In this document: piece by piece, positions 3,890 to 16,871 of the stretch
Layout: each line of letters begins with the position of its first letter
Numbering within the stretch: position 1 is the stretch's first letter
Source of the DNA: Bacteroidales bacterium
GTDB taxonomy: Bacteria > Bacteroidota > Bacteroidia > Bacteroidales > WCHB1-69
Direction of reading: 5' to 3'
Assembly (NCBI GenBank): GCA_017527945.1
Contig: JAFXPL010000019.1
Coordinates: forward strand, 1-22,050
DNA length: 22,050 nt
The notes under the pieces: model-generated
The model's input: the letters and a program-made list of their open reading frames with translations, nothing else
What the model was told of the DNA's origin: nothing
Databases searched by the model: none
Position numbers and translations under genes: made by a program

Positions 3890-5434
3890 ATGTTGATACG
3901 AACGAACAATTGTGCATTGATGGGGGTGGCCGCGATACCCATCGTTGTGGAGGTCAATGTTGATAATGGCATCGGCTTCTTTTTGGTCGGGTTGCCCGAC
4001 AGCGCGGTGAAAGAGAGTCAGCAGCGCATCGAGACGGCGCTGAACGTCTATAACTACAGGATTCCAGGTCGCAAGATTGTGGTGAACATGGCGCCTGCGG
4101 ACATCCGCAAGGAGGGTTCGGCATACGACTTGACGCTGGCCATTGGCATTTTGGCTGCGTCGGAGCAGATTGCGGGCGCAGCCGATTTGGAGGACTATTT
4201 CATCATGGGGGAGCTGTCGTTGGATGGCTCGTTGCAGCCGGTGCGAGGCGCGTTGCCCATCGCGTTGGAGGCGAGGAAGCGGAAGAAGAAGGGGGTGATC
4301 CTGCCGGCGCAGAACGCTCGGGAGGCGGCCATCGTTGATGGCATCGACATTCTCGGGGCCGAGAACATCAAGCAGGTGATCGACTTCTTCGACAAGGGCA
4401 CGCCCATCGAGCCGACGCGTATTGACGTTGCCAATGCCTTCAGCGACAGTCTGAACCGTTACGAGTACGACTTTTCCGACGTGAAGGGCCAGGAGAACAT
4501 CAAGCGGGCGATGGAGATTGCGGCGGCGGGCGGACACAATGTGATCTTGATAGGGCCGCCGGGATCGGGCAAGACCATGTTGGCCAAGCGGTTGCCGTCG
4601 ATTCTGCCGCCGTTGTGCCTGGAGGAGGCGTTGGAGACGACGAAGATCCATTCGGTGGCGGGCAAGATGAGCCGTTACGCCTCGATCATCTCCACGCGGC
4701 CGTTCCGTTCGCCGCACCACACCATCAGCGATGTGGCTTTGGTGGGCGGCGGCACGCACCCGCAGCCGGGCGAGATTTCGTTGGCGCACAACGGGGTGCT
4801 TTTCCTGGATGAGCTTCCGGAGTTCAAGCGGCAGGTGCTGGAGGTGATGCGGCAGCCGTTGGAGGAGCGGCGGGTTACCATCTCGCGGTCAAAATACTCA
4901 GTGGAGTTTCCGGCGTCGTTCATGTTCATCGCCGCCATGAATCCCTGTCCGTGCGGCAACTACAACCATCCGACCATCGCCTGCACGTGCAAGCCCTTCG
5001 AGGTGCAGAACTACCTGAGCAAGATTTCGGGGCCGCTGATGGACCGCATCGACCTGCATGTGGAGGTGGTGCCGGTGAGCCACGAGGAGCTGACTTCCGA
5101 CAAGCCGACAGAGCGCAGTGCGGAGATCCGGAAGCGGGTGATGGCGGCCAGGGAGATTCAGAAGCAGCGGTTCGAGGGGCGGCCGGGGTTGTTCGCCAAC
5201 GCGCAGATGAGCAGCCGGATGGTGCGCGACTATTGCCAGATTGACGCGACGGGGCAGGAGATTCTGAAGCAGGCGATGGACAGGCTGGGGCTCTCCGCCC
5301 GCGCCTACGACCGCATCCTGAAGGTGGCCCGCACCATTGCCGACCTCGACGGCAGCCCGGGCATTGAGGTCGGGCACCTGAGCGAGGCTATCAATTTTAG
5401 GAATCTGGATAGGGATAATTGGGGGAGGAGATGA
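3890..5434 (+). CDS. yifB: YifB/ComM family Mg-chelatase-like AAA+ ATPase
   Basis: This is a full-length (514 residues) member of the YifB/ComM family. ComM is a hexameric helicase that promotes branch migration when incoming single-stranded DNA is integrated during natural transformation; the role in Bacteroidetes is inferred by homology. Residues about 1-170 form the ChlI/Lon-protease-like N-terminal domain (FFLVGLPDSAVKES, NMAPADIRKEG). The AAA+ core has Walker A GPPGSGKT at 222-229 and Walker B LFLDE at 304-308, followed by RQPLEERRVTISR. A four-cysteine element (CPCG and CTC, about 353-367) and the DRIDLHVEV segment are typical. The C-terminal helical domain (about 440-514) includes [19 protein letters not shown]. 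The start follows a strong promoter directly. Its last 137 bases recur at 6183-6319. Confidence 0.95.
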   Translation: MLIRTNNCALMGVAAIPIVVEVNVDNGIGFFLVGLPDSAVKESQQRIETALNVYNYRIPGRKIVVNMAPADIRKEGSAYDLTLAIGILAASEQIAGAADLEDYFIMGELSLDGSLQPVRGALPIALEARKRKKKGVILPAQNAREAAIVDGIDILGAENIKQVIDFFDKGTPIEPTRIDVANAFSDSLNRYEYDFSDVKGQENIKRAMEIAAAGGHNVILIGPPGSGKTMLAKRLPSILPPLCLEEALETTKIHSVAGKMSRYASIISTRPFRSPHHTISDVALVGGGTHPQPGEISLAHNGVLFLDELPEFKRQVLEVMRQPLEERRVTISRSKYSVEFPASFMFIAAMNPCPCGNYNHPTIACTCKPFEVQNYLSKISGPLMDRIDLHVEVVPVSHEELTSDKPTERSAEIRKRVMAAREIQKQRFEGRPGLFANAQMSSRMVRDYCQIDATGQEILKQAMDRLGLSARAYDRILKVARTIADLDGSPGIEVGHLSEAINFRNLDRDNWGRR

Positions 5435-5440
5435 GGTTTC

Positions 5441-5561
5441 GCCCCTGAAGGGGCGTACGTGGGCCTTCCGAAGGCGCCGTCTCTACCGAGCTTGTGTCCC
5501 TTCGGGACAAGGCGTCCGTCGTGGTCGTTGCGCCTTACGGAGCTGTTGTCCCTGTGGGACA
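5441..5561. repeat. Cluster of short GC-rich hairpins (REP-like)
   Basis: Four small perfect palindromes lie in a 121-base stretch just after the yifB stop. These are GCCCC-tgaa-GGGGC (5441-5454), GCCTTC-c-GAAGGC (5463-5475), TGTCCC-ttc-GGGACA (5495-5509) and TGTCCC-tgt-GGGACA (5547-5561). No T-run follows any of them, so they are not a standard terminator. The arrangement resembles REP-like repeats, and an IS200/RAYT-type transposase remnant lies about 130 bases further on. The first hairpin could still contribute to mRNA 3'-end stability of yifB. Confidence 0.6.
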
Positions 5562-5688
5562 TCCCTCCTCGGTGTACTGTCTGTGCAAATCCACATTCAA
5601 ATGGTTTTTGCCGTTCAAAACAGAGCTTCCCTGATTTTCGATTCATGACGAGAACGTCTGTAAAGATGAGATACCCATCATTATCTGA

Positions 5689-5823
5689 CATATCGAAAAC
5701 CAGGCGGAACACCACAAACAGCAAGACATGGTGAACGAATACAAAATGATGTTAGAGGAAAGCGAAGTTGAATATAATGTCTTATTCGTTTTTTGTAAGA
5801 TTGAAAGCCAGACGTGTAAATAA
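5689..5823 (+). pseudogene. C-terminal remnant of an IS200-like (RAYT-type) transposase
   Basis: The frame beginning at 5689 reads HIENQAEHHKQQDMVNEYKM and continues with MLEESEVEYN. The NQ.EHH segment followed by an acidic helix and an EYN/EYD ending is, from memory, the C-terminal pattern of Bacteroidetes Y1 (IS200-like) transposases. The frame is closed upstream by a TGA at 5686 and loses similarity after EYN, with no HUH motif or catalytic tyrosine present, so only the tail survives. It is too short for function. The link to the neighbouring hairpin cluster fits a REP-associated transposase, but that is inference. Confidence 0.5.
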
Positions 5824-5923
5824 TATTCCAAAAGTATGCCGCTTTGGAGATTGCAAAAATACAAAAATTGACAATCGATTCCAAAAAAATTCGGACAAGC
5901 AACTCTTTGTTCGAAAAATATTG

Positions 5924-5931
5924 TAATTTTG
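5924..5931 (+). promoter_or_regulatory. Orphan -7 box in the gene graveyard
   Basis: TAATTTTG fits TAnnTTTG, with a TTTG at 5906-5909 that is too close (14 bases) for a standard -33 element. The only coding similarity downstream is the ATPase fragment, so this may be the promoter of the lost gene or a chance match. Confidence 0.3.
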
Positions 5932-5984
5932 CAGTGGATTTCGAATGGAAATAAATATGAAGGCATACGTAAAAAGAGACACCA

Positions 5985-6119
5985 CTGAAACGAATTGATG
6001 ATTCTTTCCAGAAAATTGTCATTGTCAAAGACGATATTATGCCATATCGTGACGAAAAAGGTATTTACTTTACAGGGTTGTTTCAGTTCCTGATGGACGA
6101 AAAGATAGCAGTAAGCTGA
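5985..6119 (+). pseudogene. C-terminal remnant of an AAA/DUF4143 ATPase
   Basis: The frame reads LKRIDDSFQKIVIVKDDIMP and then [19 protein letters not shown] before a TGA at 6117-6119. The pattern of a short I.DSF.KIVIV strand, a charged turn, then GI...GL..FL.D resembles the C-terminal end of the Bacteroidetes ATP-binding proteins with a DUF4143 domain. These are orphan ATPases often found in accessory DNA. The frame is blocked upstream by a TAA at 5970-5972 and no P-loop is present anywhere in this interval. I read it as the decayed tail of a deleted gene. The family call rests on pattern memory only. Confidence 0.5.
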
Positions 6120-6182
6120 ATATGTCGGTAAAAATTTGGAATAGTTCTTCCGGAAGAAAAATGGTACTATCAAAATATATCT

Positions 6183-6319
6183 CCCGCGCCTACGACCGTA
6201 TCCTGAAGGTGGCCCGCACCATTGCCGACCTCGACGGCAGCTCTGGCATTGAGGTCGGGCACCTGAGCGAGGCCATCAATTTTAGGAATCTGGATAGGGA
6301 CAGTTGGGGGAGGAGATGA
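6183..6319 (+). pseudogene. Duplicated 3' end of yifB
   Basis: These 137 bases align without gaps to 5298-5434, the last 45 codons and stop of yifB. I count 6 mismatches. Four are synonymous; the other two change Pro to Ser and Asn to Ser. Upstream similarity ends abruptly at the CCCGCGCC boundary. The copy is in frame with an ATG at 6122, giving a nominal 65-residue ORF, but its first 20 codons have no recognisable origin and I do not consider it a functional gene. The stop codon is followed within 4 bases by the heptamer array that precedes the four-helix-bundle gene. Confidence 0.9.
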
Positions 6320-6322
6320 TTG

Positions 6323-6346
6323 ATTCATAATTCATAATTCATAATT
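6323..6346. repeat. Heptamer array, unit ATTCATA x3
   Basis: ATTCATA occurs three times head to tail (6323-6343) plus a partial fourth unit. Its reverse complement contains TATGAAT, the word found in the array on the other side of the four-helix-bundle gene at 6721-6751. The two arrays are therefore inverted relative to each other. Confidence 0.85.
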
Positions 6347-6358
6347 TAATGGTAGGAT

Positions 6359-6721
6359 ATGAAAAGTAATAAAGATAATTTGATTGTGGTGAAGAGTACC
6401 GAATTCGCTGTGGATGTTGTACGTTTTTGTGATTGGTTGCGGAAAGAGAGAAAGGAATGGGTGATTTCTGAGCAATTGTTGAAGAGTGGCACCAGTATTG
6501 GCGCTAATATTCGGGAGGGAATAAGAGGGCAAAGCAGTTCTGATTTTTATTCAAAATTCAACATCTCTCTTAAAGAAGCAAGCGAATCTGATTATTGGTT
6601 AGAATTGCTACACAAAAGCGGCTACTTGGATAACGCCCTATATGAAGAGTTGAAAAACAAATGTGAAGAATTGATCCGCATACTAACCTCCATCGTTAAA
6701 CACAAAGACCACCGTAACTAA
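6359..6721 (+). CDS. Four-helix-bundle protein, 23S rRNA intervening-sequence protein family
   Basis: This 120-residue protein belongs to the S23/IVP four-helix-bundle family (TIGR02436 type), first known from intervening sequences within 23S rRNA genes and now common as free-standing genes in Bacteroidetes. The hallmark is the segment QLLKSGTSIGANIREGIRGQ (about 41-60), followed by SKFNISLKEASESDYWLELL. The molecular function of free-standing members is not established. The start is the ATG at 6359, 13 bases after an AT-rich heptamer array, with no TAnnTTTG box nearby, so transcription may come from read-through. The stop overlaps the first base of the second, inverted array. Codons are more AT-rich than in yifB, consistent with acquisition as a cassette. 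The family call is firm. Confidence 0.9.
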   Translation: MKSNKDNLIVVKSTEFAVDVVRFCDWLRKERKEWVISEQLLKSGTSIGANIREGIRGQSSSDFYSKFNISLKEASESDYWLELLHKSGYLDNALYEELKNKCEELIRILTSIVKHKDHRN

Positions 6722-6751
6722 TTATGCATTATGAATTATGCATTATGAATT
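6721..6751. repeat. Heptamer array, units ATTATGC/ATTATGA x4
   Basis: Two copies of the 14-mer ATTATGCATTATGA (6721-6734, 6735-6748) plus ATT amount to four 7-base units. The array overlaps the last base of the four-helix-bundle gene and supplies the last codons and TAA stop of the convergent LytTR gene. It is inverted relative to the array at 6323. Confidence 0.85.
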
Positions 6752-7807
6752 AACATGGTATCCGCCGTGGCGCTTGCTGCCGACGTATTTGACGAGCTTG
6801 CGCTTGCGGAGCTCGGCGATACAACGCTCGACAGTGCTCAATGAAAAGGCTGTTTTGGCGGTGATGTCTGTTGCGTTGCAGCCTGGATTCTCCTGGATGC
6901 AGGAATGAACCATGTCGAGTTTCTGCTGTGGGGGAACGACGGGCTTCCGCTTGGATTTCGACCGGGGCTTTCTCTTCGGAGCTTGTTCCCCTCCTGTTTC
7001 GGCTTTGCATCGCTGAAGTCCTTCGGCGACCTGGTCGGCGATTGAGCCGCTGTTTTTGGGATCCAACGTGAACGTGAGCGGCTTCTTCGTCCACGGCATC
7101 TTTTTCAGGAACACCTCGCTGCCGTTACACGACCAGATGTACTGATACGGAATCAAAACGGTGGGCGAAATGCGGACAAAATCTTCTTCCCCGAACAGTT
7201 GCACAAGATGTTTCATAGAGCCGAGCCGTGTAAACCAACGGTCATGCACCGTATAGATGCGGGTGAAGTTTCCGTCCTGAACACAATAGTAGATGTCGTC
7301 TTTGGGAATCATTAAGAGGTTACTCTCATTGTCTATGACATCCACCATCTGAGTGTCGCGATAGACCACCTGCACTTGGGCATCCAAGGCCTTTCGCAGT
7401 TCCTGTCGCTCCCGGAACATAAACGGGAAGAAGTTGAATGCCAAGGTACGGGCAGCCACAACTCTCCCTTGATGGGTAAACATTCTGAAGGCGCCAATTT
7501 GCTCTATAACCTCCGCATTACAATATTTCATCCATTTCCAGGCGATAACCATCTCAATCAATCCTGCCACAAAGGAAACGAAAACCACTACCACCCAATA
7601 GACAACCGGATGCTTTTTATGAAGTAGGGGGTAAAACAGGAAATAGTTGGCATATATGGTGGCCAACAACAACAGCCCCGCAAGCACTTCATTGGTGACA
7701 CTGCCCGCCCATGGACGAAGATAGGAGTTGTTGACAAAGAAGTAGAGCAGCACGGCGCAGAACAAGACGTTCAGCAAAACGATAACGATGGTTCTTCGGT
7801 GTTTCAT
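6743..7807 (-). CDS. Membrane-anchored LytTR regulator with C-terminal winged helix
   Basis: This is a predicted transcription factor of 354 residues. I start it at the ATG at 7807 (MKHRRTIVIV) because the promoter box at 7868-7875 places the transcript start inside the longer frame that opens at 7870. Three hydrophobic segments lie at about 7-25, 40-61 and 68-90. A LytTR-type DNA-binding domain spans about 165-255 (LMIPKDDIYYCVQDGNFTRI, FVRISPTVLIPYQYI). A basic linker follows (about 276-292, rich in K, R, S and P), then a winged-helix-like region (about 295-350, including NATDITAKTAFSLSTVERCI and LRKRKLVKYVG). The N-terminus may sense a membrane or envelope signal. No histidine kinase is adjacent. 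It is divergent from the giant surface gene, its likely target. Its final residues and stop come from the repeat array. Confidence 0.8.
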   Translation of the reverse strand: MKHRRTIVIVLLNVLFCAVLLYFFVNNSYLRPWAGSVTNEVLAGLLLLATIYANYFLFYPLLHKKHPVVYWVVVVFVSFVAGLIEMVIAWKWMKYCNAEVIEQIGAFRMFTHQGRVVAARTLAFNFFPFMFRERQELRKALDAQVQVVYRDTQMVDVIDNESNLLMIPKDDIYYCVQDGNFTRIYTVHDRWFTRLGSMKHLVQLFGEEDFVRISPTVLIPYQYIWSCNGSEVFLKKMPWTKKPLTFTLDPKNSGSIADQVAEGLQRCKAETGGEQAPKRKPRSKSKRKPVVPPQQKLDMVHSCIQENPGCNATDITAKTAFSLSTVERCIAELRKRKLVKYVGSKRHGGYHVNS

Positions 7808-7867
7808 AATCGGACATCCATATTTGTTTATTATTATGCTTCTTGTTTTCGGGTCTGAAAGTCGCTG

Positions 7868-7875
7868 CAAAGATA
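7868..7875 (-). promoter_or_regulatory. -7 box of the LytTR gene
   Basis: On the minus strand the sequence reads TATCTTTG, matching TAnnTTTG. It lies about 60 bases upstream of the ATG at 7807 and supports that start. A TTTG lies upstream, but at 15 rather than 19-21 bases, so activation or an alternative -33 is possible. Confidence 0.65.
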
Positions 7876-7914
7876 GTGAATTAATCCAAACAAAACCCCG
7901 GAAAACAGTCCCAT

Positions 7915-7946
7915 TCCCTCACAGAAAAGTCCTCTAAAGCCCTCAC
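7915..7946 (-). promoter_or_regulatory. Candidate operator: TGAGGG direct repeats facing the LytTR promoter
   Basis: On the minus strand GTGAGGG occurs at 7940-7946 and 7916-7922, 24 bases apart. A related AGAGGA (7930-7935) lies between them, giving a rough 12-base period. The sites lie about 40 bases upstream of the LytTR -7 box. The same word occurs as a direct repeat before the giant gene in the opposite orientation. Binding by the LytTR protein is inference. Confidence 0.4.
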
Positions 7947-7997
7947 AACAGCACAAAAATCGGACATTTATTTAACGTATTGAAAATCAGACTTTTA

Positions 7998-8009
7998 CCC
8001 CCCCCCCCC
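7998..8009 (+). repeat. Homopolymer of 12 C
   Basis: Twelve consecutive C residues lie about midway between the divergent LytTR and surface-protein promoters, about 95 bases upstream of the surface-gene -7 box. Such tracts are prone to slipped-strand length change. The exact length could be a sequencing or assembly artefact. Confidence 0.9.
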
Positions 8010-8052
8010 GAAATATTGGTTCAAAACTGGCAAATCGGTCACATTTTTACTA

Positions 8053-8080
8053 TGAGGGAACATATTTTTTGCGTGAGGGA
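8053..8080 (+). promoter_or_regulatory. Candidate operator: TGAGGGA direct repeats before the giant surface gene
   Basis: TGAGGGA occurs at 8053-8059 and 8074-8080, exactly 21 bases apart, about two helical turns. Spaced direct repeats are how LytTR dimers typically bind. The second site ends 23 bases before the -7 box, where a -33 element should be, and no TTTG is correctly placed. That layout suits activator-dependent transcription. Confidence 0.5.
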
Positions 8081-8103
8081 TATAAAAGTGTTGCGAAAGA
8101 TTG

Positions 8104-8111
8104 TATCTTTG
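8104..8111 (+). promoter_or_regulatory. -7 box of the giant surface-protein gene
   Basis: TATCTTTG matches TAnnTTTG, followed by GCA. The ATG at 8178 lies 66 bases downstream. The intervening leader is largely made of a heptamer array. Confidence 0.7.
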
Positions 8112-8118
8112 CACCCAA

Positions 8119-8160
8119 AACTTTGAACTTTGAACTTTGAAACTTGAATTCTGAAACTTA
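8119..8160 (+). repeat. Heptamer array, unit AACTTTG x3 plus three degenerate units
   Basis: Three exact AACTTTG units (8119-8139) are followed in register by AAACTTG, AATTCTG and AAACTTA, making 42 bases of 7-base periodicity. It occupies most of the predicted 5' untranslated leader of the giant gene, so changes in copy number could affect translation. Confidence 0.8.
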
Positions 8161-8177
8161 GAAAAAAACATATTATT

Positions 8178-11100
8178 ATGAAAAACCTCATTTCCTTATT
8201 CGTTATTTTAGCGACGCTGGTGGCAGGACTGACCGCGCAAACCCTCACGGTGGCCAATGACCCAAACACAGGGGTCAATGCACCTGCGGCTATCGACAAC
8301 ATCTCCGTCACATTCGACGCAACGACTTGCGAATTGCCAGAACAGTTGACCGCCCATCCGCAAGACACTACCGTCACGCTTTCTTGGTCATCCGGAAGTA
8401 TTGGTATCCCATCCTCTTACACTGTAGCTTACAAAATGTTAAGCGACTCTATGTTAAGCGACTCTGTCTTTACGGAACTGACCACCCAGGACACTTTCCT
8501 CACGATTCAAGGACTCACTCCGGCAACCGATTATCAATGGAAAATAATGACCATTTGCGACAACGACTCCCAAAGCATTTGGAGTCCGCTAAACACTTTC
8601 AGAACTTTAAACGAGTTGCCCGCGTTTCCTTATATATGTGATTTTGAAGACATTGTAGAAAACAGCAATTGGCAGTTTGTCGGAGACAACTATGTTAACC
8701 ATTGGATTATTGGCTCTGACACCTATCAAGATGGCACATCTTCGCTCTATGTTTCCAATGATTCAATAGGTAACAACACTTATTCACGCTATTCTGCATC
8801 GTCGGTTTGGGCTTATCGGGACATCAAGCTGCCTGAAGGATTCGAACACTACCAAATATCTTTTGCATTTAAGGGTATAGGACATCCTAATCACGATTTC
8901 ATGCAGTTTTACATAGGTCCTCCGACCATGCCTCAGGGAGGAAGCACGCCTGTTGGTGCTACGTCAATAGGCAACAAGTTCGCGAATTGCGACTCTTGGT
9001 GCAGATTCTGCTATGATCTTGACAGTTCCTACGCAGGCATCCAACGTCTCTATGTTAAATGGAAAAATATCAAATCATTAGGGTCAGGAGCAACGTACTA
9101 CTTCACACAGGAGACCAATCCTCCTGCTGCCATAGACAATCTCTCGATTGTGGGATCTCATTGTTCCTTACCTCAAAATATAACCTCATCAATGGTCAGC
9201 GGCTATGCCCAAACTTTGTCTTGGACTGGTGATGCCACCTCCTACATCGTAGCCTATCGTCCTCAAAACGTTCAGGAATACCAAGAAATCACGGTTACTG
9301 ACACTTTTTGCACCCTTAACACCCTCACTCCCTTTACCAAGTACGTATGGAAAGTGAAAAGCTCATGCGGTGAAGATGGACAAAGCGAGTGGAGCTCAGA
9401 GCAGACATTTGAAACTCCCATACAAACGCCCTATTTCTGCGACTTTGAAGACGCACAAGAAAATGCAGCATGGGGATTCCAAACCAGCATCTACTCCCTC
9501 GTTGATCTGAATTGGCATATAGGCAATTCTATCAGCGGAGCTGATGAGCATGCTCTTTATGTTAACGACAGCGATTGGCTCAACCACGTCTATTGGGCTT
9601 TCCGCGACATTTTCCTTGACCCCGCCTATAACGGCTATGACCTCTCCTTTGATTTTTATGGTTTGAGCGACTGGGAAAACAACAATTATGTTCGTGTTTT
9701 TATAGGCACCCCTACAACTCCTAGCGGAAACAGCGTCTCCGGAGCCACAGAACTCGCAACTTTATACCAAGACACCTGCATTTGGCAAACAAAGACAATG
9801 GTGATAGACTCCACCCACAAAGGGCTACAACGATTGTATTTTCAACACAAAGCATATAACAACCCTTCTTGCGCATATATAGACAATATCTCTTTGACTG
9901 GCTTCTATTGCGCCACTACTTGTTCTGATTTGACATCTGTCCCGCACGACACAGTCGCTGTTCTTTCTTGGAACGTCTCCGACTCGAACGTTTATTCTTA
10001 CACTATCGCATATAAAAAACTCACTGACAACTCTTTCTCAGAGGCTGTCGTGTTTGAGAACCCCTTCAGTTTGTCAAATTTACTACCAGAGACCACCTAT
10101 ATTTGGAAAGTCAAAGCCAATTGTAGTGCTACAGAGGAAGGGCATTGGTCTGAAGAAGGTAACTTTACTACTACGTCAAGCATCTTAAAAACACCGTATA
10201 TATGTGATTTCGAAAATGACAGCATCAATTCCCGTTGGATTTTGCAAAACGGCTCAAATGTCAACCGCTGGGAGATTGACACTGCGGCAAACAACGGAGG
10301 AACACGAGCCCTCTATATTTCCAACGACAACGGTGCCACCAACGCTTACACACTGAATTCCACCTCATATTCTTGGGCCTACACGGATATCTACTTCTAT
10401 CCAAATGCTGAAGAATACACCATCTCCTTTGATTTCAAAGGCATGGGAGAATTATATTACTCAACCATCTATGACTATGCCAAGGTGTTTATTGGCCCCC
10501 CTGTGACACCGAGCGGAAAGGCCACTCCTGATGGTGCACATCAAATTGGTGATCAGCTTTACAATATTTCGGACTGGACTACATTCTCCGAGATTATTCA
10601 GACTCCGCAAAGTGAATATCAACGAATTTACTTGCTTTGGGTGAACGATTTCTCCTCCGGCACCAACCCGCCAGCTGCCTTCGACAACATCTCCATCGTA
10701 CCGATAGCTTGCGGCATTCCACGACATCTGACCGCAAACCAAGTGTCGGAGAACGATGCGGTGCTGTCGTGGACAGCATCTTACCAAGCTGATTCCTATA
10801 CGGTGGCTTACCGCCGACAATCCGACAGCGCCTACAGTTATATGACAGCCAACAGCACTCAAGCCACGCTGACCAACCTGCAACCCAAGACCAACTATAT
10901 AGCCAAAGTCAGAGCCAACTGTGACACTTCGCAAGGCGCATGGAGCGATGAGTTCCAGTTCAGCACAACCACACTGCCCTATTTCTGCGGCTTTGAGGAA
11001 GCGGACGAGAACGCTTGCTGGATCTTGGATGACGGCATGAACAACCACAAGTGGTACATCGGCCATGCGGCGCACTGTGATGGCGACTCCGCGTTGTATG

Positions 11101-14100
11101 TCTCCAACAACAACGGCGTTTCCAACACATTCTCCAACAATGTGAACGCCCAAACTTGGGCTTATCGCGACATCTTTTTCGATCCGCAATATTCCGAATA
11201 TCTGATGGAATTCGACATTCGCTCAAACGGTTATCATGGGGCTGCATTGGACTACGTGAAAGTGCTTCTCGGACCTCCCGCCACCCCTTCGGGCAACTAT
11301 GTTCCGACTGATGCAGAGACCATCGGCAACTTCTATGAGATAACCGACTGGAGACATTTCCGCTTCGTGATCGACGGATCTCATGCGGGTATGCAACGCC
11401 TTTACTTCCTTTGGACACAGCAGGTTGCAGGAACGAACAACAATCTTCCGGGTGCCGTGGACAACATCTCCATCGTAGGTTCGCCATGCAGCATCCCGAC
11501 GGAGCTCACCGTTTCCGACCTTGCCGATGTCACAGCAGTGGTTTCCTGGAGCCCCGGCACGTGCGGCATCACCAACGACTACACCGTCGGCTATCGGATG
11601 AGCAGCGATACGGGATGGTACGAGCTTTCCACCACCGACACGTTCCTATTGCTGCAGAATTTGCAGTCCTCCACGCAATACACTTGGCGGGTGCGCAAGA
11701 GCTGCGTGCCGTCATACGCCAGCCAGTGGAGCGATACAAGCACCTTCTTCACGGAAGCCACCGAAGCGCAGCTGCCCTATTTCTGCGGCTTTGAAGAGAG
11801 TGACGAGAACCGCGACTGGCGTCTGCTGGGTGTGGGCGACAACCGCTGGTATATTGGGCAGGCCGCGCAACAAGCAGGCCAATACGCCCTTTATGTCTCC
11901 AACGATAACGGCGCGACCAACGCCTACGATGTCTATGGCTCCATGAGCAACTCCTGGGCTTATCGTGACATCTATTTCACCCCAGGATATTCTGAATACC
12001 AGATTGCCTTCGATTTCCGAGGGCTTGGGCAGAGCGGCGATGACCGCACCCGCATCTTCCTCGGACCTCCTGTCCCTGTGGAGCCCAATGCCACCTATTC
12101 CATCACTATCCCTTCCGGATTGGAGGAACTCGGCAACGGGCTGTACACGGATGCCGCATGGACCAGCCATTCGTTCACGGTCGATTCCACGCACGCGGGA
12201 CACCAGCGGCTCTACTTCCTCTGGAGCAATGGCTACTATGAGGGAACGAACCCGCCGGGTGCCGTCGATAACATCATGATTTACGGCGGTTCCTGCGCTG
12301 CACCGCACACGCTGACGGTGACCGCAACCTCCACAACCAGCATCAGCTTCAGCTTCACCCCCGCCGACACCAACGACCAAAATTGGGAGGCCGTTATTGT
12401 GGAAGAAGGGCAACCTATTGACACCACGCAGATTGTCGCGCTGACAAGTACCGCTTACACCTTCAACAATCTACACAAAGACAGGCTCTACACCATCTAT
12501 GTGCGCACCGATTGCGGGGACAGCCAGAGTGCATGGTGTTCCACTTCGCAAAGGACGGACTGCGGCACCATCACCGATATTCCTTATATGGAATCCTTTG
12601 ACACCTACGGCACCGGCTCCAACTTGGACGGCTATTCCGCATTCCCGAGATGCTGGAGCCGCCTCTACTCCTCCTATATCGTCGCACCTTATCCGTTTAT
12701 TTTCCCCAATGGATATTACAGCTCACCGGGTTCGCTCTATTTCCAACCCAGCAACGGCCACAACGTCGCCATCACGCCCGAATTTGATTCGTCTATCCCG
12801 ATGAACACTTTGCAGGCGTCGTTCAAGTTCAAAGCCAACACGACAGCCCCCAACTCCATTTTGGTGGTGGGTGTGATGACCGATCCTAACGACTTCGCCA
12901 CGTTCACGCCTGTTGACACGGTCTTCCCGAACCCTTACGCGCTGACATCTTGGATTGACAGGACCGTCAGTTTGGCTTCCTATACCGGCAACGGTCACTA
13001 CCTCGCTTTTATGCAGGAGAACTTCTCCAATCCGCTCACCCCGGTCAGCATGGACAATCTGACGGTGGAATACCTCTCCGCTTGTCCGCTGCCCACGAAT
13101 GTGACCGCTGAACCCATCACCCACGACAGCGTGTTGGTGGATTGGCAACCCGGCGGGTCGGAGACCGCTTGGCGCGTGGTGGTCGTTCCTAACGGCAATG
13201 GACCTGAGAGCGGCACACCTGTGCAGACGGGAACTCATCCGATTGTTATCGGCGGCTTGGCCGACAACACGATGTACGATGTCTTCGTGCAGTCCGATTG
13301 CGGCAGCTCGAGCAGTTCGTGGTGTACCCCCGCCACCTTCATGACAACTTGCACCCCCGTGGTGGATCTGCCCTACTCGGAGAATTTCGACGACTACCCG
13401 TGGATGAGCACCTATATTGTGAGACCCGACTGCTGGATCTTCCCCGTCACCTACGCCGAATGTCCCAGAATTGACTGGAACACCTACGGCTATTACGGCA
13501 TGGAGAGCAAAGCCCTGCTCTTCCACTCCGACACGTCAACGACTGCTACCGCGGTCACCCAGCCGTTCGGGGTGGACATCCACTCGCTGCGGGCTCAGTT
13601 CCGGCTGTCTGCTGACCACGAATATATCGCCGGATGTATGGAAGTGGGGGTGATGAGCGACCCGTACGACCTTTCGACTTTTGAATCCGTACAGGTTATT
13701 TCCATCGCCCATTTTGATACCTGGCAGGATGTCACGGTGGATTTCCGCAACACGGCGATGACGGGCACCAACCGCCATATCGCCTTCCGACAGGTGGGAT
13801 TACACTCCTCCAATATGGCCATGTGGCTTGACGATCTGATTGTCTATCAAGCAGATGATTGCGATGCACCCTCCGCTTTGACTGCCCATGACCTCACCTC
13901 CACCTCGGCTACCATCTCGTTCGAGCCCTCGCATAGTAGTGCTTCACAATGGGAATATGTGGCCTGCGCCCCGGGAGTTTCCCCCAACACCCAAACCCCG
14001 GTGGCCACCACCAACACCTCGTTTGTCGTTGACAACCTGACTCCCGGACAAACGTACCGCATATTCGTGCGGACTGTCTGTGGCTCGAACAGCCATTCGG

Positions 14101-14900
14101 GATGGTCAGAGCCGTTAGAAATTACCCCGGACTGTGGAATTATCAGCCAATTGCCCTACACGGAGAGGTTCGACACTTACGAAACAGACAGTGAAGCGGC
14201 CTTCCCCGATTGCTGGCGCCGCATTCTGACCCCTGCATCTTACTCCTACTACCCCATCGTTTCGTCCGAAGTTTCCGCCAGCGGTATCGGGTCGATGCTC
14301 TTCCTCGCCAACTCCTTCAGCGATGATTGGGCCATCACCCCGGCATTCGCCCCGAATCTCTCCTTTGATAGCATCCAGCTGGATTTCAGCTACTTCCAGG
14401 AAGCTGGTGCGGTTCCTGGTTGGGACACGATGTTCATCGGTGTGATGAGCAGTCCTTACGATGCCGCCTCCTTCGTGCCGGTCGATACCATCACCCTCCA
14501 GAGCTGGGGCGTGTGGGAACCGCATTCAGTACTCCTTGACCACCACAACGGCGACGGACGGTATGTGGCGTTCCGCTATCACTGTCCCGCCTATTTAGGC
14601 AAGGTGTTCATCGACGACGTGGTGTTCTCTGTAAGACCTGATGTCGGGGTTCCCGAGCGTGACATAGACCAACTCTTGCACCTCTACCCCAACCCCACGA
14701 CAGGCAAATGCATCGTCCGCAACGAGCAAGACCTCATCGAGCAGTTGGAGGTATATGATATGTACGGGAAACGGTTAGAGCTGCACTTTGTGCGTGATTA
14801 CCAGACGGTTATCGACCTTTCCACCCGTGCCTCCGGTGTCTATTTCGTGCGTGTGACCACCGAACAGGGCACCGTCACCAAACGGGTGGTGAAACGGTAG
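8178..14900 (+). CDS. Giant T9SS-secreted protein with repeated jelly-roll-like/FN3 modules
   Basis: This 2240-residue exported protein starts with a signal peptide (MKNLISLFVILATLVAGLTAQ) and ends with a type A sorting domain (about 2166-2240; LYPNPTTGKCIV, ASGVYFVRVTTEQGTVTKRVVKR). It should be secreted by T9SS and attached to the cell surface. Between lie eight tandem modules beginning at about residues 151, 418, 673, 934, 1200, 1469, 1732 and 1993, about 255-269 residues apart. Each starts with PYxCxFEx or PYxExFD, contains a choice-of-anchor-J/MAM-like beta domain (WAYRDI, GPP.TPSG, PGAVDNI), and all but the last are followed by a fibronectin III-like domain. Modules 1-5 and 6-8 are two subtypes. 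No catalytic domain was recognised, so adhesion is the likely role. The first 50 mature residues hold only the tail of another module. Codon and base composition shift along the gene. Confidence 0.9.
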   Translation: MKNLISLFVILATLVAGLTAQTLTVANDPNTGVNAPAAIDNISVTFDATTCELPEQLTAHPQDTTVTLSWSSGSIGIPSSYTVAYKMLSDSMLSDSVFTELTTQDTFLTIQGLTPATDYQWKIMTICDNDSQSIWSPLNTFRTLNELPAFPYICDFEDIVENSNWQFVGDNYVNHWIIGSDTYQDGTSSLYVSNDSIGNNTYSRYSASSVWAYRDIKLPEGFEHYQISFAFKGIGHPNHDFMQFYIGPPTMPQGGSTPVGATSIGNKFANCDSWCRFCYDLDSSYAGIQRLYVKWKNIKSLGSGATYYFTQETNPPAAIDNLSIVGSHCSLPQNITSSMVSGYAQTLSWTGDATSYIVAYRPQNVQEYQEITVTDTFCTLNTLTPFTKYVWKVKSSCGEDGQSEWSSEQTFETPIQTPYFCDFEDAQENAAWGFQTSIYSLVDLNWHIGNSISGADEHALYVNDSDWLNHVYWAFRDIFLDPAYNGYDLSFDFYGLSDWENNNYVRVFIGTPTTPSGNSVSGATELATLYQDTCIWQTKTMVIDSTHKGLQRLYFQHKAYNNPSCAYIDNISLTGFYCATTCSDLTSVPHDTVAVLSWNVSDSNVYSYTIAYKKLTDNSFSEAVVFENPFSLSNLLPETTYIWKVKANCSATEEGHWSEEGNFTTTSSILKTPYICDFENDSINSRWILQNGSNVNRWEIDTAANNGGTRALYISNDNGATNAYTLNSTSYSWAYTDIYFYPNAEEYTISFDFKGMGELYYSTIYDYAKVFIGPPVTPSGKATPDGAHQIGDQLYNISDWTTFSEIIQTPQSEYQRIYLLWVNDFSSGTNPPAAFDNISIVPIACGIPRHLTANQVSENDAVLSWTASYQADSYTVAYRRQSDSAYSYMTANSTQATLTNLQPKTNYIAKVRANCDTSQGAWSDEFQFSTTTLPYFCGFEEADENACWILDDGMNNHKWYIGHAAHCDGDSALYVSNNNGVSNTFSNNVNAQTWAYRDIFFDPQYSEYLMEFDIRSNGYHGAALDYVKVLLGPPATPSGNYVPTDAETIGNFYEITDWRHFRFVIDGSHAGMQRLYFLWTQQVAGTNNNLPGAVDNISIVGSPCSIPTELTVSDLADVTAVVSWSPGTCGITNDYTVGYRMSSDTGWYELSTTDTFLLLQNLQSSTQYTWRVRKSCVPSYASQWSDTSTFFTEATEAQLPYFCGFEESDENRDWRLLGVGDNRWYIGQAAQQAGQYALYVSNDNGATNAYDVYGSMSNSWAYRDIYFTPGYSEYQIAFDFRGLGQSGDDRTRIFLGPPVPVEPNATYSITIPSGLEELGNGLYTDAAWTSHSFTVDSTHAGHQRLYFLWSNGYYEGTNPPGAVDNIMIYGGSCAAPHTLTVTATSTTSISFSFTPADTNDQNWEAVIVEEGQPIDTTQIVALTSTAYTFNNLHKDRLYTIYVRTDCGDSQSAWCSTSQRTDCGTITDIPYMESFDTYGTGSNLDGYSAFPRCWSRLYSSYIVAPYPFIFPNGYYSSPGSLYFQPSNGHNVAITPEFDSSIPMNTLQASFKFKANTTAPNSILVVGVMTDPNDFATFTPVDTVFPNPYALTSWIDRTVSLASYTGNGHYLAFMQENFSNPLTPVSMDNLTVEYLSACPLPTNVTAEPITHDSVLVDWQPGGSETAWRVVVVPNGNGPESGTPVQTGTHPIVIGGLADNTMYDVFVQSDCGSSSSSWCTPATFMTTCTPVVDLPYSENFDDYPWMSTYIVRPDCWIFPVTYAECPRIDWNTYGYYGMESKALLFHSDTSTTATAVTQPFGVDIHSLRAQFRLSADHEYIAGCMEVGVMSDPYDLSTFESVQVISIAHFDTWQDVTVDFRNTAMTGTNRHIAFRQVGLHSSNMAMWLDDLIVYQADDCDAPSALTAHDLTSTSATISFEPSHSSASQWEYVACAPGVSPNTQTPVATTNTSFVVDNLTPGQTYRIFVRTVCGSNSHSGWSEPLEITPDCGIISQLPYTERFDTYETDSEAAFPDCWRRILTPASYSYYPIVSSEVSASGIGSMLFLANSFSDDWAITPAFAPNLSFDSIQLDFSYFQEAGAVPGWDTMFIGVMSSPYDAASFVPVDTITLQSWGVWEPHSVLLDHHNGDGRYVAFRYHCPAYLGKVFIDDVVFSVRPDVGVPERDIDQLLHLYPNPTTGKCIVRNEQDLIEQLEVYDMYGKRLELHFVRDYQTVIDLSTRASGVYFVRVTTEQGTVTKRVVKR
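8436..8465 (+). repeat. In-frame 15-bp tandem duplication
   Basis: The 15-mer ATGTTAAGCGACTCT occurs twice in succession, encoding MLSDS twice at residues 87-96 of the giant protein. It lies inside the first fibronectin III-like domain, in a strand-connecting stretch. The copies are identical, suggesting a recent event. Confidence 0.9.
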
Positions 14901-14913
14901 TGGGCGGATATAT
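14852..14913 (+). repeat. 62-bp repeat, copy 1 (3' end of the giant gene)
   Basis: This segment encodes the last 15 residues and stop of the T9SS protein plus 13 downstream bases. It matches 16090-16151 with 2 mismatches and no gaps. The TAG stop here is TAA in the second copy. Confidence 0.9.
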
Positions 14914-14966
14914 CATCTGTTCCAGAATTAACAGAAGCAAAACAACTTGACAATCAATATTGCAAA

Positions 14967-15926
14967 ATGAAAAGAATCATCCGAATTTCAACATTGGCCC
15001 TACTGGTCGTCTTGACCTTGACGGGCTGTAAGAAAAGTTATACCGTCACGGTGAAATCCAACAACACGGAATGGGGTTCTGTCACAGGCTCAGGCACATA
15101 CAAAGACGGTGAGACGGTCACCCTATCCGCAGTGCCTGTGATGGGATGTTGTTTTGTCCGCTGGAACGACGGCGATGCCACCAATCCGCGCCAAATTGTG
15201 GTGAGCGGCGATGCCGAATACATCGCCATATTCACAGACACAACCGGCGGCGGCAATGACTTAACCGGCACCGTTGTACACGATGCGGTGACCGATTACG
15301 ACGGTAACAGCTATGACGCAGTGTGGATAGGCAACCAGCTGTGGATGAAAGAGAACCTCCACACCACGCACTATGCCGATGGCACGGAAATCCCCCACGG
15401 AGTAGACACGAGTGTGACCAAGCCATATTGGTACAACTACTCCGTTCTCACCCTCCCACAGGAAAAATATTACAACTGGCCGGCGGTGATGCATGGAGAG
15501 GCTTCCAGCAACACCAGCCCGAGCGGCGTGCAGGGAATCTGTCCTTCTGGCTGGCATCTGCCGAGCGATGCGGAGTGGCTGATAATGGAGCAGCGGCTGT
15601 CCACGATGGATGTGTCCGGTTTCGGATGGCGCGGCGACCATGCGGGCATGTTGGCGAGTGACGGATGGGATGCTTCCTCCAAGTCGGGAGCCCCTGGCAA
15701 CGTAGCGGATTCCAACCATAACATTTCGGGGTTCTCCGCCGTTTCTGTAGGCTATTGCAATAATATTGCTCCTATGGATATGGGCCGAACTGCTCATTTC
15801 TGGAGTGCCACTCAGGACATCCACAATTCCGCATGGTGTCGCGATCTTTTTTACAACGAGGCGCGTGTAAACAGAGACCTCAGCGGCAAGGAATCCGGCT
15901 ATTCGGTTCGCTGCCTTCGCAATTGA
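14967..15926 (+). CDS. FISUMP-domain lipoprotein
   Basis: This 319-residue predicted lipoprotein carries a signal peptide with lipobox LTGC and lipidation Cys at residue 21. Residues about 25-92 form a short bacterial-repeat (InlB B-repeat-like) domain (GSVTGSGTYKDGETVTLSAV, FVRWNDGD, YIAIFTD). After a short glycine linker comes the Fibrobacter succinogenes major paralogous (FISUMP, TIGR02145-type) domain, about 100-319, with VWIGNQLWMKENL, GICPSGWHLPSDAEW, FWSATQ and the terminal GYSVRCLRN. The biochemical role of FISUMP domains is not established; they occur on surface lipoproteins and secreted proteins of Bacteroidetes and Fibrobacteres. The gene follows the giant surface gene by 66 bases with no clear promoter box, so it may share that transcript. 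A hairpin terminator lies 36 bases after the stop. Confidence 0.85.
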   Translation: MKRIIRISTLALLVVLTLTGCKKSYTVTVKSNNTEWGSVTGSGTYKDGETVTLSAVPVMGCCFVRWNDGDATNPRQIVVSGDAEYIAIFTDTTGGGNDLTGTVVHDAVTDYDGNSYDAVWIGNQLWMKENLHTTHYADGTEIPHGVDTSVTKPYWYNYSVLTLPQEKYYNWPAVMHGEASSNTSPSGVQGICPSGWHLPSDAEWLIMEQRLSTMDVSGFGWRGDHAGMLASDGWDASSKSGAPGNVADSNHNISGFSAVSVGYCNNIAPMDMGRTAHFWSATQDIHNSAWCRDLFYNEARVNRDLSGKESGYSVRCLRN

Positions 15927-15940
15927 CATACGCTTGATCT

Positions 15941-15975
15941 GAGACGTGTGACGTATGATTTGAGACGTGAGAATG
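15941..15975 (+). repeat. Heptamer array, unit GAGACGT
   Basis: Five units in register read GAGACGT, GTGACGT, ATGATTT, GAGACGT, GAGAATG. The two exact GAGACGT units are 21 bases apart, three periods. The array runs into the 5' arm of the terminator hairpin, which may therefore be derived from it. Confidence 0.6.
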
Positions 15976-16005
15976 GATTATCCCCAAAGTCTCACGTCTT
16001 TTTTT
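15963..16005 (+). terminator. Rho-independent terminator after the FISUMP gene
   Basis: A perfect 10-bp stem AGACGTGAGA (15963-15972) and TCTCACGTCT (15990-15999) encloses a 17-base loop and is followed by a run of T to 16005. It is correctly placed and oriented to end the giant gene plus lipoprotein transcript. Confidence 0.8.
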
Positions 16006-16089
16006 GATGCGGTCGCAGTGGCTTTATTGCGAATTTAATTGTGCAAGGAAATCCTCCAGTTGGAGCGCAAATTGCCTGCAGCGTTCGAA

Positions 16090-16151
16090 TGTGACCACCG
16101 AACAGGGCACCGTCACCAAACGGGTGGTGAAACGGTAATGGGCGGATACAT
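16090..16151 (+). repeat. 62-bp repeat, copy 2 (orphan T9SS gene tail)
   Basis: Sixty of 62 bases match 14852-14913. The copy still encodes VTTEQGTVTKRVVKR and a TAA stop, but no open T9SS-cargo gene precedes it. The 70 bases before it, read on minus, give a protein-like FERCRQFALQLEDFLAQLN ending in TAA, perhaps another gene tail, which I could not identify. Confidence 0.9.
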
Positions 16152-16170
16152 TTTTCGGTTTCCCCATTTT

Positions 16171-16218
16171 GTAGGGACGCGATTCATCGTGACATGACGC
16201 GATGAATCGCGTCCCTAC
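16171..16218. repeat. 19-bp perfect inverted repeat (hairpin/MITE-like)
   Basis: The arms 16171-16189 and 16200-16218 are perfect reverse complements of 19 bases, beginning GTAGGGACGCG and ending CGCGTCCCTAC, around a 10-base loop. No T-run follows immediately on either strand, so a terminator role is doubtful. From memory, similar GTAGGGACGCGAT hairpins occur dispersed in many genomes, but this was not checked here. Confidence 0.9.
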
Positions 16219-16269
16219 ATTTTTCACGCACCTCCACCACAGATAACCATAATCATTCAACAGCTTCAA

Positions 16270-16346
16270 TAACCATAACCATTAACCCTCAATGTCAATG
16301 TCAATAACCATTTACCATTAACCCTCAATAACCAATAACCATTAAA
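16270..16346 (+). repeat. Degenerate heptamer array, TAACCAT-like x11
   Basis: Eleven successive 7-base units can be laid out, including TAACCAT twice 35 bases apart, CAATAAC twice in tandem and ATGTCAA/AATGTCA variants. It ends 5 bases before the promoter box of the deacylase gene. The array fills the rest of the 453-base gap after the FISUMP gene, which otherwise holds the terminator, the 62-bp repeat and the hairpin. Confidence 0.6.
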
Positions 16347-16379: not shown

Positions 16380-16871
16380 ATGAACGGAGACCCGCGATTA
16401 TACAAACTCTTGGATGAACTGCACATCCCGTACGAGTATCTGGAGCACCCGCCCGCCCCGACCATTGAGATTGCCAAGCAATATTGGGCAGGGCACGACG
16501 CGAAGCACTGCAAGAACCTTTTCTTCCGCAACCACAAGGGCAATCAGCACTATCTGGTCTGCCTCGACTGCGATCAGGACATGAACATCCATGACATTGA
16601 GAAACAGCTGCATCAGGGCAAGTTGAGCTTCGCCTCGGAGCCGCGCCTGATGAAGTACCTCGGCGTGCAGCCTGGGTCGGTGACCCCGTTCGGGCTCATC
16701 AACGACACAGAGCATCATGTGCATGTGTTCCTCGACCGTCAGCTGCAGCAGGCGGAACGCGTGAGTTTCCACCCGTGTGTCAACACGGCTTCGCTCATGG
16801 TGGCGCGTGCGGACTTCGAGCGCTTTCTCCAATATATGGGCAACCCTTACGAATGGATTGACCTGTACTAA
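16380..16871 (+). CDS. ProXp-ala/YbaK-type aminoacyl-tRNA deacylase
   Basis: This 163-residue cytoplasmic protein is a stand-alone editing domain of the INS/YbaK superfamily, closest in pattern to prolyl-tRNA synthetase-associated deacylases (ProXp-ala, PrdX). These hydrolyse mischarged tRNA, typically Ala-tRNA-Pro, to protect translation accuracy. Family features include the N-terminal LYKLLDELHIPYEYLEHPP, the KNLFFRNHKGNQHYLVCLDC block with the conserved lysine (here K45), the LMKYLGVQPGSVTPFGLIND segment and the HPCVNTASLMV strand near the C-terminus. Length is normal for the family. The ATG is preceded by a promoter box 20 bases upstream. It is convergent with the M14 peptidase gene, with only 18 bases between stops and no visible terminator. 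Substrate preference cannot be settled from sequence alone. Confidence 0.85.
   Translation: MNGDPRLYKLLDELHIPYEYLEHPPAPTIEIAKQYWAGHDAKHCKNLFFRNHKGNQHYLVCLDCDQDMNIHDIEKQLHQGKLSFASEPRLMKYLGVQPGSVTPFGLINDTEHHVHVFLDRQLQQAERVSFHPCVNTASLMVARADFERFLQYMGNPYEWIDLY

Follow-up and report, generated by a model that had tools for sequence, protein, structure and literature searches.

An S23p gene enclosed by inverted heptanucleotide arrays between protein genes of a Bacteroidales genome: a candidate passenger element resembling the intervening sequences of rRNA genes

The window analysed here, a stretch of 22,050 nt from a Bacteroidales bacterium (assembly GCA_017527945.1, contig JAFXPL010000019.1, positions 1–22,050 of the forward strand), contains, among its protein-coding genes, a small gene of the S23p family that encodes a four-helix-bundle protein and is set between two arrays of 7-nt repeats (Table 1). 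An earlier note on this DNA had listed five intergenic arrays sharing a 7-nt period, with mostly unrelated sequences. All five stretches are indeed present, but their quality is unequal, arrays 1–3 being clear, array 4 weak, and array 5 irregular; a period of exactly seven fails for array 5, which has 72% matches and 16% indels and adjoins an array of the 6-mer TCAATG. As for arrays 1 and 2, they are by no means unrelated: they are inverted copies of each other, with 26-nt arms, 92% complementary, that lie 382 nt apart, and they form one S23p cassette, a structure overlooked in the earlier note.

The open reading frame (ORF) between the arms matches the profiles PF05635 (E 9e-27; 93.8 bits, the curated cut-off being 33.8) and TIGR02436 (E 3.4e-30; 104.4 bits, cut-off 24), and is related to the solved S23p structures PDB 2rld (E 9.5e-31) and, by profile, 2gsc. 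A protein 99% identical to it (P0001) is recorded on 42 contigs. Array 2 overlaps the S23p stop codon, and the next gene (6743–7870) is on the opposite strand. In the predicted fold of the RNA from 6316–6757, the arms constitute a terminal stem around the ORF, with a minimum free energy of –104.9 and a z-score of –2.47, equalled by none of 100 shuffled sequences. Of the features of the intervening sequences (IVS) of 23S rRNA genes, terminal inverted repeats able to pair around an S23p ORF are observed in the window cassette, and the location in a 23S rRNA gene is not, as scanning of the window with Rfam at the gathering threshold produced zero matches and the cassette neighbours are protein genes. 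We consider it probable that a small, IVS-like S23p passenger element resides here between protein genes, with arrays 1 and 2 as its inverted arms; it looks like a little-noticed relative of the insertions in some rRNA genes.

Immediately before the cassette, at 6183–6319, the last 137 bp of a YifB-like gene (ending at 5434) recur on the same strand with 95.6% identity, 748 bp separating the gene end from its 3' copy (region 5201–6319).

Table 1. Heptad arrays and the S23p cassette in the window
Feature	Position	Strand	Description
S23p cassette	6320–6753	+	Inverted heptad arms (6320–6345 and 6728–6753, 92% complementary) and S23p gene
Array 1, upstream arm	6320–6346	+	(ATTCATA) x3.4, 100% matches
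S23p gene	6359–6721	+	120-aa four-helix-bundle protein; PF05635 and TIGR02436 profile matches
Array 2, downstream arm	6720–6753	+	AATTATG x4.7, 84% matches (100% as a 14-mer); reverse complement of array 1
Array 3, solo	8119–8160	+	AACTTTG x3.3 at 100%, then degenerate units; directly before ORF 8178–14900
Array 4	15940–15999	+	Degenerate GAGACGT units, 69% matches
Array 5, solo	16243–16346	+	TAACCAT-like units, interrupted by indels, and a patch of the 6-mer TCAATG; precedes ORF 16380–16871

Inverted arms are not a peculiarity of this locus. Twenty-two genomes were hand-picked among 80 genomes represented by YifB loci, 11 of them for period-7 arrays already shown, and the S23p family is present in 21 of the 22, with 125 matches; 116 matches plus the window were analysed, 115 having usable flanks. 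Comparing the upstream flank with the reverse complement of the downstream flank at a threshold score of at least 14, we observe inverted arms at 73 of 115 S23p loci. Swapped pairs reach this score in 2 of 115 cases, flanks compared in direct orientation in 15 of 115, and control genes taken from the same stretches in 4 of 128. The share of loci with arms grows with the family score, from 3 of 13 below 50 bits and 8 of 20 at 50–80 bits to 26 of 38 at 80–100 and 36 of 44 at 100 bits or more. The arm words are locus-specific, with the median score of 20.5 for the own partner and 5.0 for other S23p loci in the same genome. The lag spectrum of the flanks has its top peak at 7, followed by 8, 14, and 21; seven is the main arm period, with eight and other periods also occurring. 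When 148 genomes were drawn evenly from Bacteroidota, the family was found in 114, and among the 30 best-scoring loci of this draw, one per genome, 11 have arms, compared to 13 of 870 swapped pairs.

At 62 of 71 placed loci the S23p gene has the same direction as both neighbours; for control genes this holds in 161 of 235 cases (p 0.0013). These rows of co-directional genes bear on the explanation of the arms as a terminator or attenuator that serves the upstream gene and is repetitive by chance. Such structures do exist: the last unit of array 4 (15963–15972) pairs with 15990–15999, ahead of a T run, in a hairpin resembling an intrinsic terminator, and some spacers between adk and obg resemble attenuators. 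Still, the window arms are separated by 382 nt with a gene between, and no clear T run follows the downstream arm, which, with most placed cassettes lying inside gene rows, makes this explanation very improbable.

Cassettes of the same kind are seen on plasmids. Fourteen loci, representing five phyla, were chosen out of 26 records, 13 of these loci being from phyla other than Bacteroidota; 12 have inverted arms (swapped pairs, 10 of 182), and these come from Spirochaetota, Bacillota, Bacteroidota, and Cyanobacteriota. Perfect heptad arms occur on cyanobacterial plasmids, with the word TAATTCG in Dolichospermum and Nostoc, and CCAGTGA, on one side, in Euhalothece. The settings of plasmid S23p genes include cas2/cas1, hsdS/hsdR, and helicase/methylase. 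On two plasmids (L355, L357) the cassette separates cas2 from cas1 and has the reverse orientation, and the 3' end of cas1 appears to be replaced.

The plasmids of Nostoc sp. C052 provide a comparison of a filled and an empty site. A cassette is present on pC052_A (positions 1132–1562 of L359), while a paralogous site on pC052_D (L365) has none; the right flanks of the two are 99.7% identical, the left ones 90%, and the difference is bounded by the outer ends of a perfect inverted repeat of 36 nt, CAAAA(TAATTCG)4TAA. The pC052_D site and four further homologues have neither arms nor gene. As paralogous sites lacking the gene lack the arms as well, the arms and the gene seem to have arrived together in Nostoc.

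In Flavobacterium, S23p genes are found near gmk, in the gmk–nadD spacer at 6 of 30 loci and in the yicC–gmk spacer at 3 of 30. For Flavobacterium columnare, a four-helix-bundle gene separating guanylate kinase from nadD has been listed, the available text making no mention of repeats (PMC5524665). All nine genes constitute one clade (support 100/99), and most of the nine cassettes have arm words of the family TTAGTNA. The earlier note had suggested comparing the copy number between strains, and a change is observed here in relatives: among other differences between L221 and L222, one of the two has an additional whole 7-nt unit inserted in the same arm. In L221 the gene is at gmk–nadD, and a solo hairpin with similar words is at yicC–gmk. 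The presence of S23p is patchy on the nadD tree, requiring 4 changes (five loci were labelled at that stage). Free jumping of S23p among distant Flavobacterium sites is unsupported, the genes at the two adjacent sites forming one clade; given this single clade and the 4 changes, losses or short moves more likely explain the patchy presence. In L249, the downstream arm of the yicC–gmk cassette is much longer than the upstream one and contains many alternating units TATTCACTAATCAC / TATTCACTAATTAC.

The same region raises the question of whether the arms belong to the element at all, or are ordinary intergenic heptad hairpins of the host, in whose loops S23p genes settle. Among gene-free gmk–nadD spacers, 10 of 24 are self-complementary (p<=0.01 by shuffling), several of them heptad-built (L235, L237, L239, L244), and by eye the spacers at Bacteroides adk–obg look hairpin-like. 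Five of the ten, however, are other repeats, a palindrome like those of the repetitive extragenic palindromic (REP) type in L225, L226, and L249, and CACAAAG in L229 and L232. Moreover, the empty homologous sites of Nostoc have no arms, the S23p genes at both Flavobacterium sites retain one word family, and most of the arrays sampled away from S23p genes are not hairpins (see below). Taken together, we consider the settling of S23p genes in pre-existing host hairpins unlikely. In the window itself, a near-perfect 50-nt REP-type palindrome, TGTAGGGACGCGATTCATCG..., is present at 16170–16219, and a similar palindrome, GACGCGATTAATCGCGTC, occupies much of the gmk–nadD spacer in L225 and L226.

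The preference for seven extends beyond S23p loci, and the excess of this period over others with a shuffled control, proposed as a check in the earlier note, was borne out both in the window and in a sample of 81 Bacteroidota stretches (80 YifB loci and the window; 1.41 Mb). The window contains 4 approximate period-7 arrays, with 0.04 expected (100 dinucleotide shuffles, maximum 1); in the same scan, periods 4, 5, and 8–12 yield none, and period 6 yields two, with 0.05 expected. In the 81 stretches we identified 37 exact period-7 arrays, compared to 2.7 in shuffled sequences, 26 of them outside ORFs of at least 120 aa, while periods 5, 6, 8, and 9 are represented by 1, 8, 5, and 4 arrays, respectively. 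At uniform run length outside ORFs of the 80 YifB loci, period 7 accounts for 23 arrays, compared to 3 of period 6, 5 of period 8, none of period 9, and 14 of period 14. The period-7 arrays are clustered, all 35 of them falling into 14 of the 80 YifB loci. Surveying the even draw of 148 genomes for a core repeated four times at a set period, we found AGTT with period 7 in 59 genomes, compared to 15 genomes for period 8 and 3 for period 6. For TTGA, the backward control core, the respective numbers are 54, 19, and 16, so that period 7 leads for the second core too.

A common process behind the shared period and changing sequences, as had been suggested from the window, is thus supported by the phylum-wide excess and by both core surveys. 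No shared cause emerged for arrays 3–5 of the window: none of them flanks an S23p gene, and no S23p gene was found within 1.5 kb of any of 16 AGTT arrays sampled in other genomes. As candidate S23p arms, arrays 3–5 were rejected, the inverted partner within 600 nt scoring just 8 for array 3 and 10 for array 5, and the sole inverted partner of array 4 within this distance being the terminator hairpin. Neither are solo arrays generally hairpins, with an inverted partner in 2 of the 16, compared to 15 of 240 swapped pairs. For arrays 3–5, plain heptanucleotide microsatellites produced by polymerase slippage, with no involvement of S23p, are a good reading. Slippage has been proposed as a general cause of heptamer abundance, heptamers being the commonest class in most genomes surveyed and a polymerase footprint having been invoked (Mrazek 2007, as cited in the available part of PMC4679880), and solo arrays are common, the sampled ones being distant from S23p. 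To account for all five arrays in this way is quite improbable, as slippage alone yields no mirror-image arms with a private word for each S23p gene, and arrays 1 and 2 were already unlikely products of it.

Moreover, the number of genomes with such arrays rises with S23p copy number. AGTT arrays are present in 54 of 114 genomes having S23p and in 5 of 34 genomes without it; for TTGA arrays the respective numbers of genomes are 49 and 5, all being raw counts uncorrected for kinship and genome size. By the number of S23p copies, with the same reservation, AGTT arrays are found in 5 of 34 genomes with none, 6 of 28 having a single copy, 12 of 27 having 2–4, 17 of 34 having 5–8, and 19 of 25 having at least nine; the respective TTGA series is 5 of 34, 5 of 28, 9 of 27, 17 of 34, and 18 of 25. 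A comparison of S23p-free and S23p-rich stretches (up to 20 kb, 20 of each), with 0 and 10 period-7 arrays outside ORFs, was discounted, since the ten arrays come from just two of the 20 stretches, and L312, one of these two, has an S23p gene itself.

Some arm words also recur close to their own cassettes. At a score of at least 20, recurrence in the own outer flanks is observed for 7 of 71 loci; other S23p loci from that genome give 5 of 224 (p 0.01), and other genomes give 1 of 4746. With the minimum score set at 16, the respective numbers become 9 of 71, 12 of 224, and 30 of 4746. On the Dolichospermum plasmid pAfl69 (69 kb), all ten TAATTCG arrays, including the two arms, are confined to 6.4 kb around the cassette. 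On the other hand, a Nostoc plasmid lacking the cassette at that site (L372) has a TAATTCG-type array in a methylase gene, which weighs against local seeding. Based on the arrays of pAfl69, the arm words in own flanks, and the rise of arrays with S23p copies, one may tentatively propose, though we remain doubtful of it, that S23p cassettes are mobile elements crossing phyla, their ends recognised by shape and 7-nt rhythm rather than by sequence, and that S23p or its pathway helps to write and spread heptad arrays in the DNA nearby.

Two further repeats of the window should be mentioned. A run of 12 C at 7998–8009 lies between two divergent genes, before a 2240-aa protein with fibronectin type III (fn3) domains and a sorting signal of the type IX secretion system (T9SS), and is a possible slippage-prone switch, and a perfect two-copy tandem repeat of 15 bp is present at 8436–8465 within the large fn3-domain gene.

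Returning to the passenger-element reading of arrays 1 and 2, the features read directly from the sequences compared are the gene, the inverted arms, the locus-specific words, the period of seven (in some cases eight), and the joint absence of gene and arms in one recent Nostoc case. By analogy with the Coxiella IVS, the arms could pair in a read-through transcript, and the loop bearing the gene would be cut out, probably by RNase III; such excision would make an insertion tolerable within operons. The arms would change their words rapidly and yet stay complementary if template switching at the hairpin copied one arm onto the other, with slippage adding or removing whole 7-nt units. The unit might be able to relocate, either locally or to new positions, at the cost of some target bases, and nearby solo hairpins, as well as some solo arrays, may be copies or remains of arms.

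A number of observations weigh against this reading. The set of 22 genomes is biased by the choice of 11 for their period-7 arrays; weak family matches (below 80 bits) have arms in just 11 of 33 cases; and in the even draw just those 11 of 30 loci reach the threshold. Among the plasmid loci, those of Chlorohelix and Pseudanabaena score under the threshold, and the arms of L354 are perfect, yet not heptads. The clean empty site is a single one, with approximately 197 bp of the pC052_D sequence missing at the cassette site of pC052_A, and the cas2–cas1 site, with two filled and two empty plasmids, gives a comparable picture, cas1 having approximately 64 unaligned bp at its 3' end. Given these missing target bases, a recombination patch rather than insertion may have brought the Nostoc cassette. 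S23p opposes both neighbours on three cyanobacterial plasmids, and in the window the gene following the cassette has the opposite direction, both arrangements fitting poorly to excision from an operon transcript. Finally, S23p is thought not to be made in Coxiella (PMC4990558, available part).

Heptanucleotide repeats are frequent in bacteria, and we know of no agreed cause. If S23p does spread arrays, the cassettes would be a main source of the heptanucleotide-repeat landscape in Bacteroidota and cyanobacteria. The cassette would also be an example of inverted ends staying complementary during sequence turnover. S23p-like genes are very common and are described as having unknown function (PMC4990558, in part). 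The physical link of S23p and heptads in several phyla, echoed by the Coxiella IVS, would merge these two questions into a single system open to testing. In the available text of the open-licence literature, we found no link of S23p or four-helix-bundle genes to heptad arrays other than in the Coxiella IVS paper.

Compared to known systems, the cassette resembles miniature inverted-repeat transposable elements (MITEs) and insertion sequences (IS) in its small size, its inverted ends, and its apparent mobility in at least one instance. Unlike these, it carries no transposase, its end sequence is not conserved between copies, the arms being different at each locus, and the junctions of the single clean case, in Nostoc, show a loss of target sequence in place of a target duplication. 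Intergenic period-7 arrays of uncertain function are represented by cyanobacterial heptamers, the Xanthomonas GGGAATC, and the Beggiatoa TAACTGA, some Xanthomonas arrays being described as inverted, like the cassette arms (PMC4692102, PMC4679880, available parts); in these, one word is dispersed many times. The cassette arms are unlike those of other S23p loci in the same genome. The strings "four helix" and "S23" do not occur in the available text of PMC4679880, nor does "four helix" in that of PMC4692102. The Nostoc tRNA-Leu intron has a similar hairpin of paired degenerate heptads varying by whole units, but is located inside a tRNA intron, and S23p is not mentioned in the available part of its description (PMC3488679). 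The IVS of Coxiella burnetii 23S rRNA, as far as described in the available part of PMC4990558, has an S23p ORF in the loop, pairing terminal repeats that form a 28-bp stem, excision by RNase III in vitro, and tandem heptamers before the S23p start codon, whose number varies among strains. It differs in residing in helix 45 of 23S rRNA and being cut by RNase III, whereas the cassettes are found between protein genes and are known here from sequence data, and in the cassettes it is the arms themselves that are heptad arrays, each with a private word.

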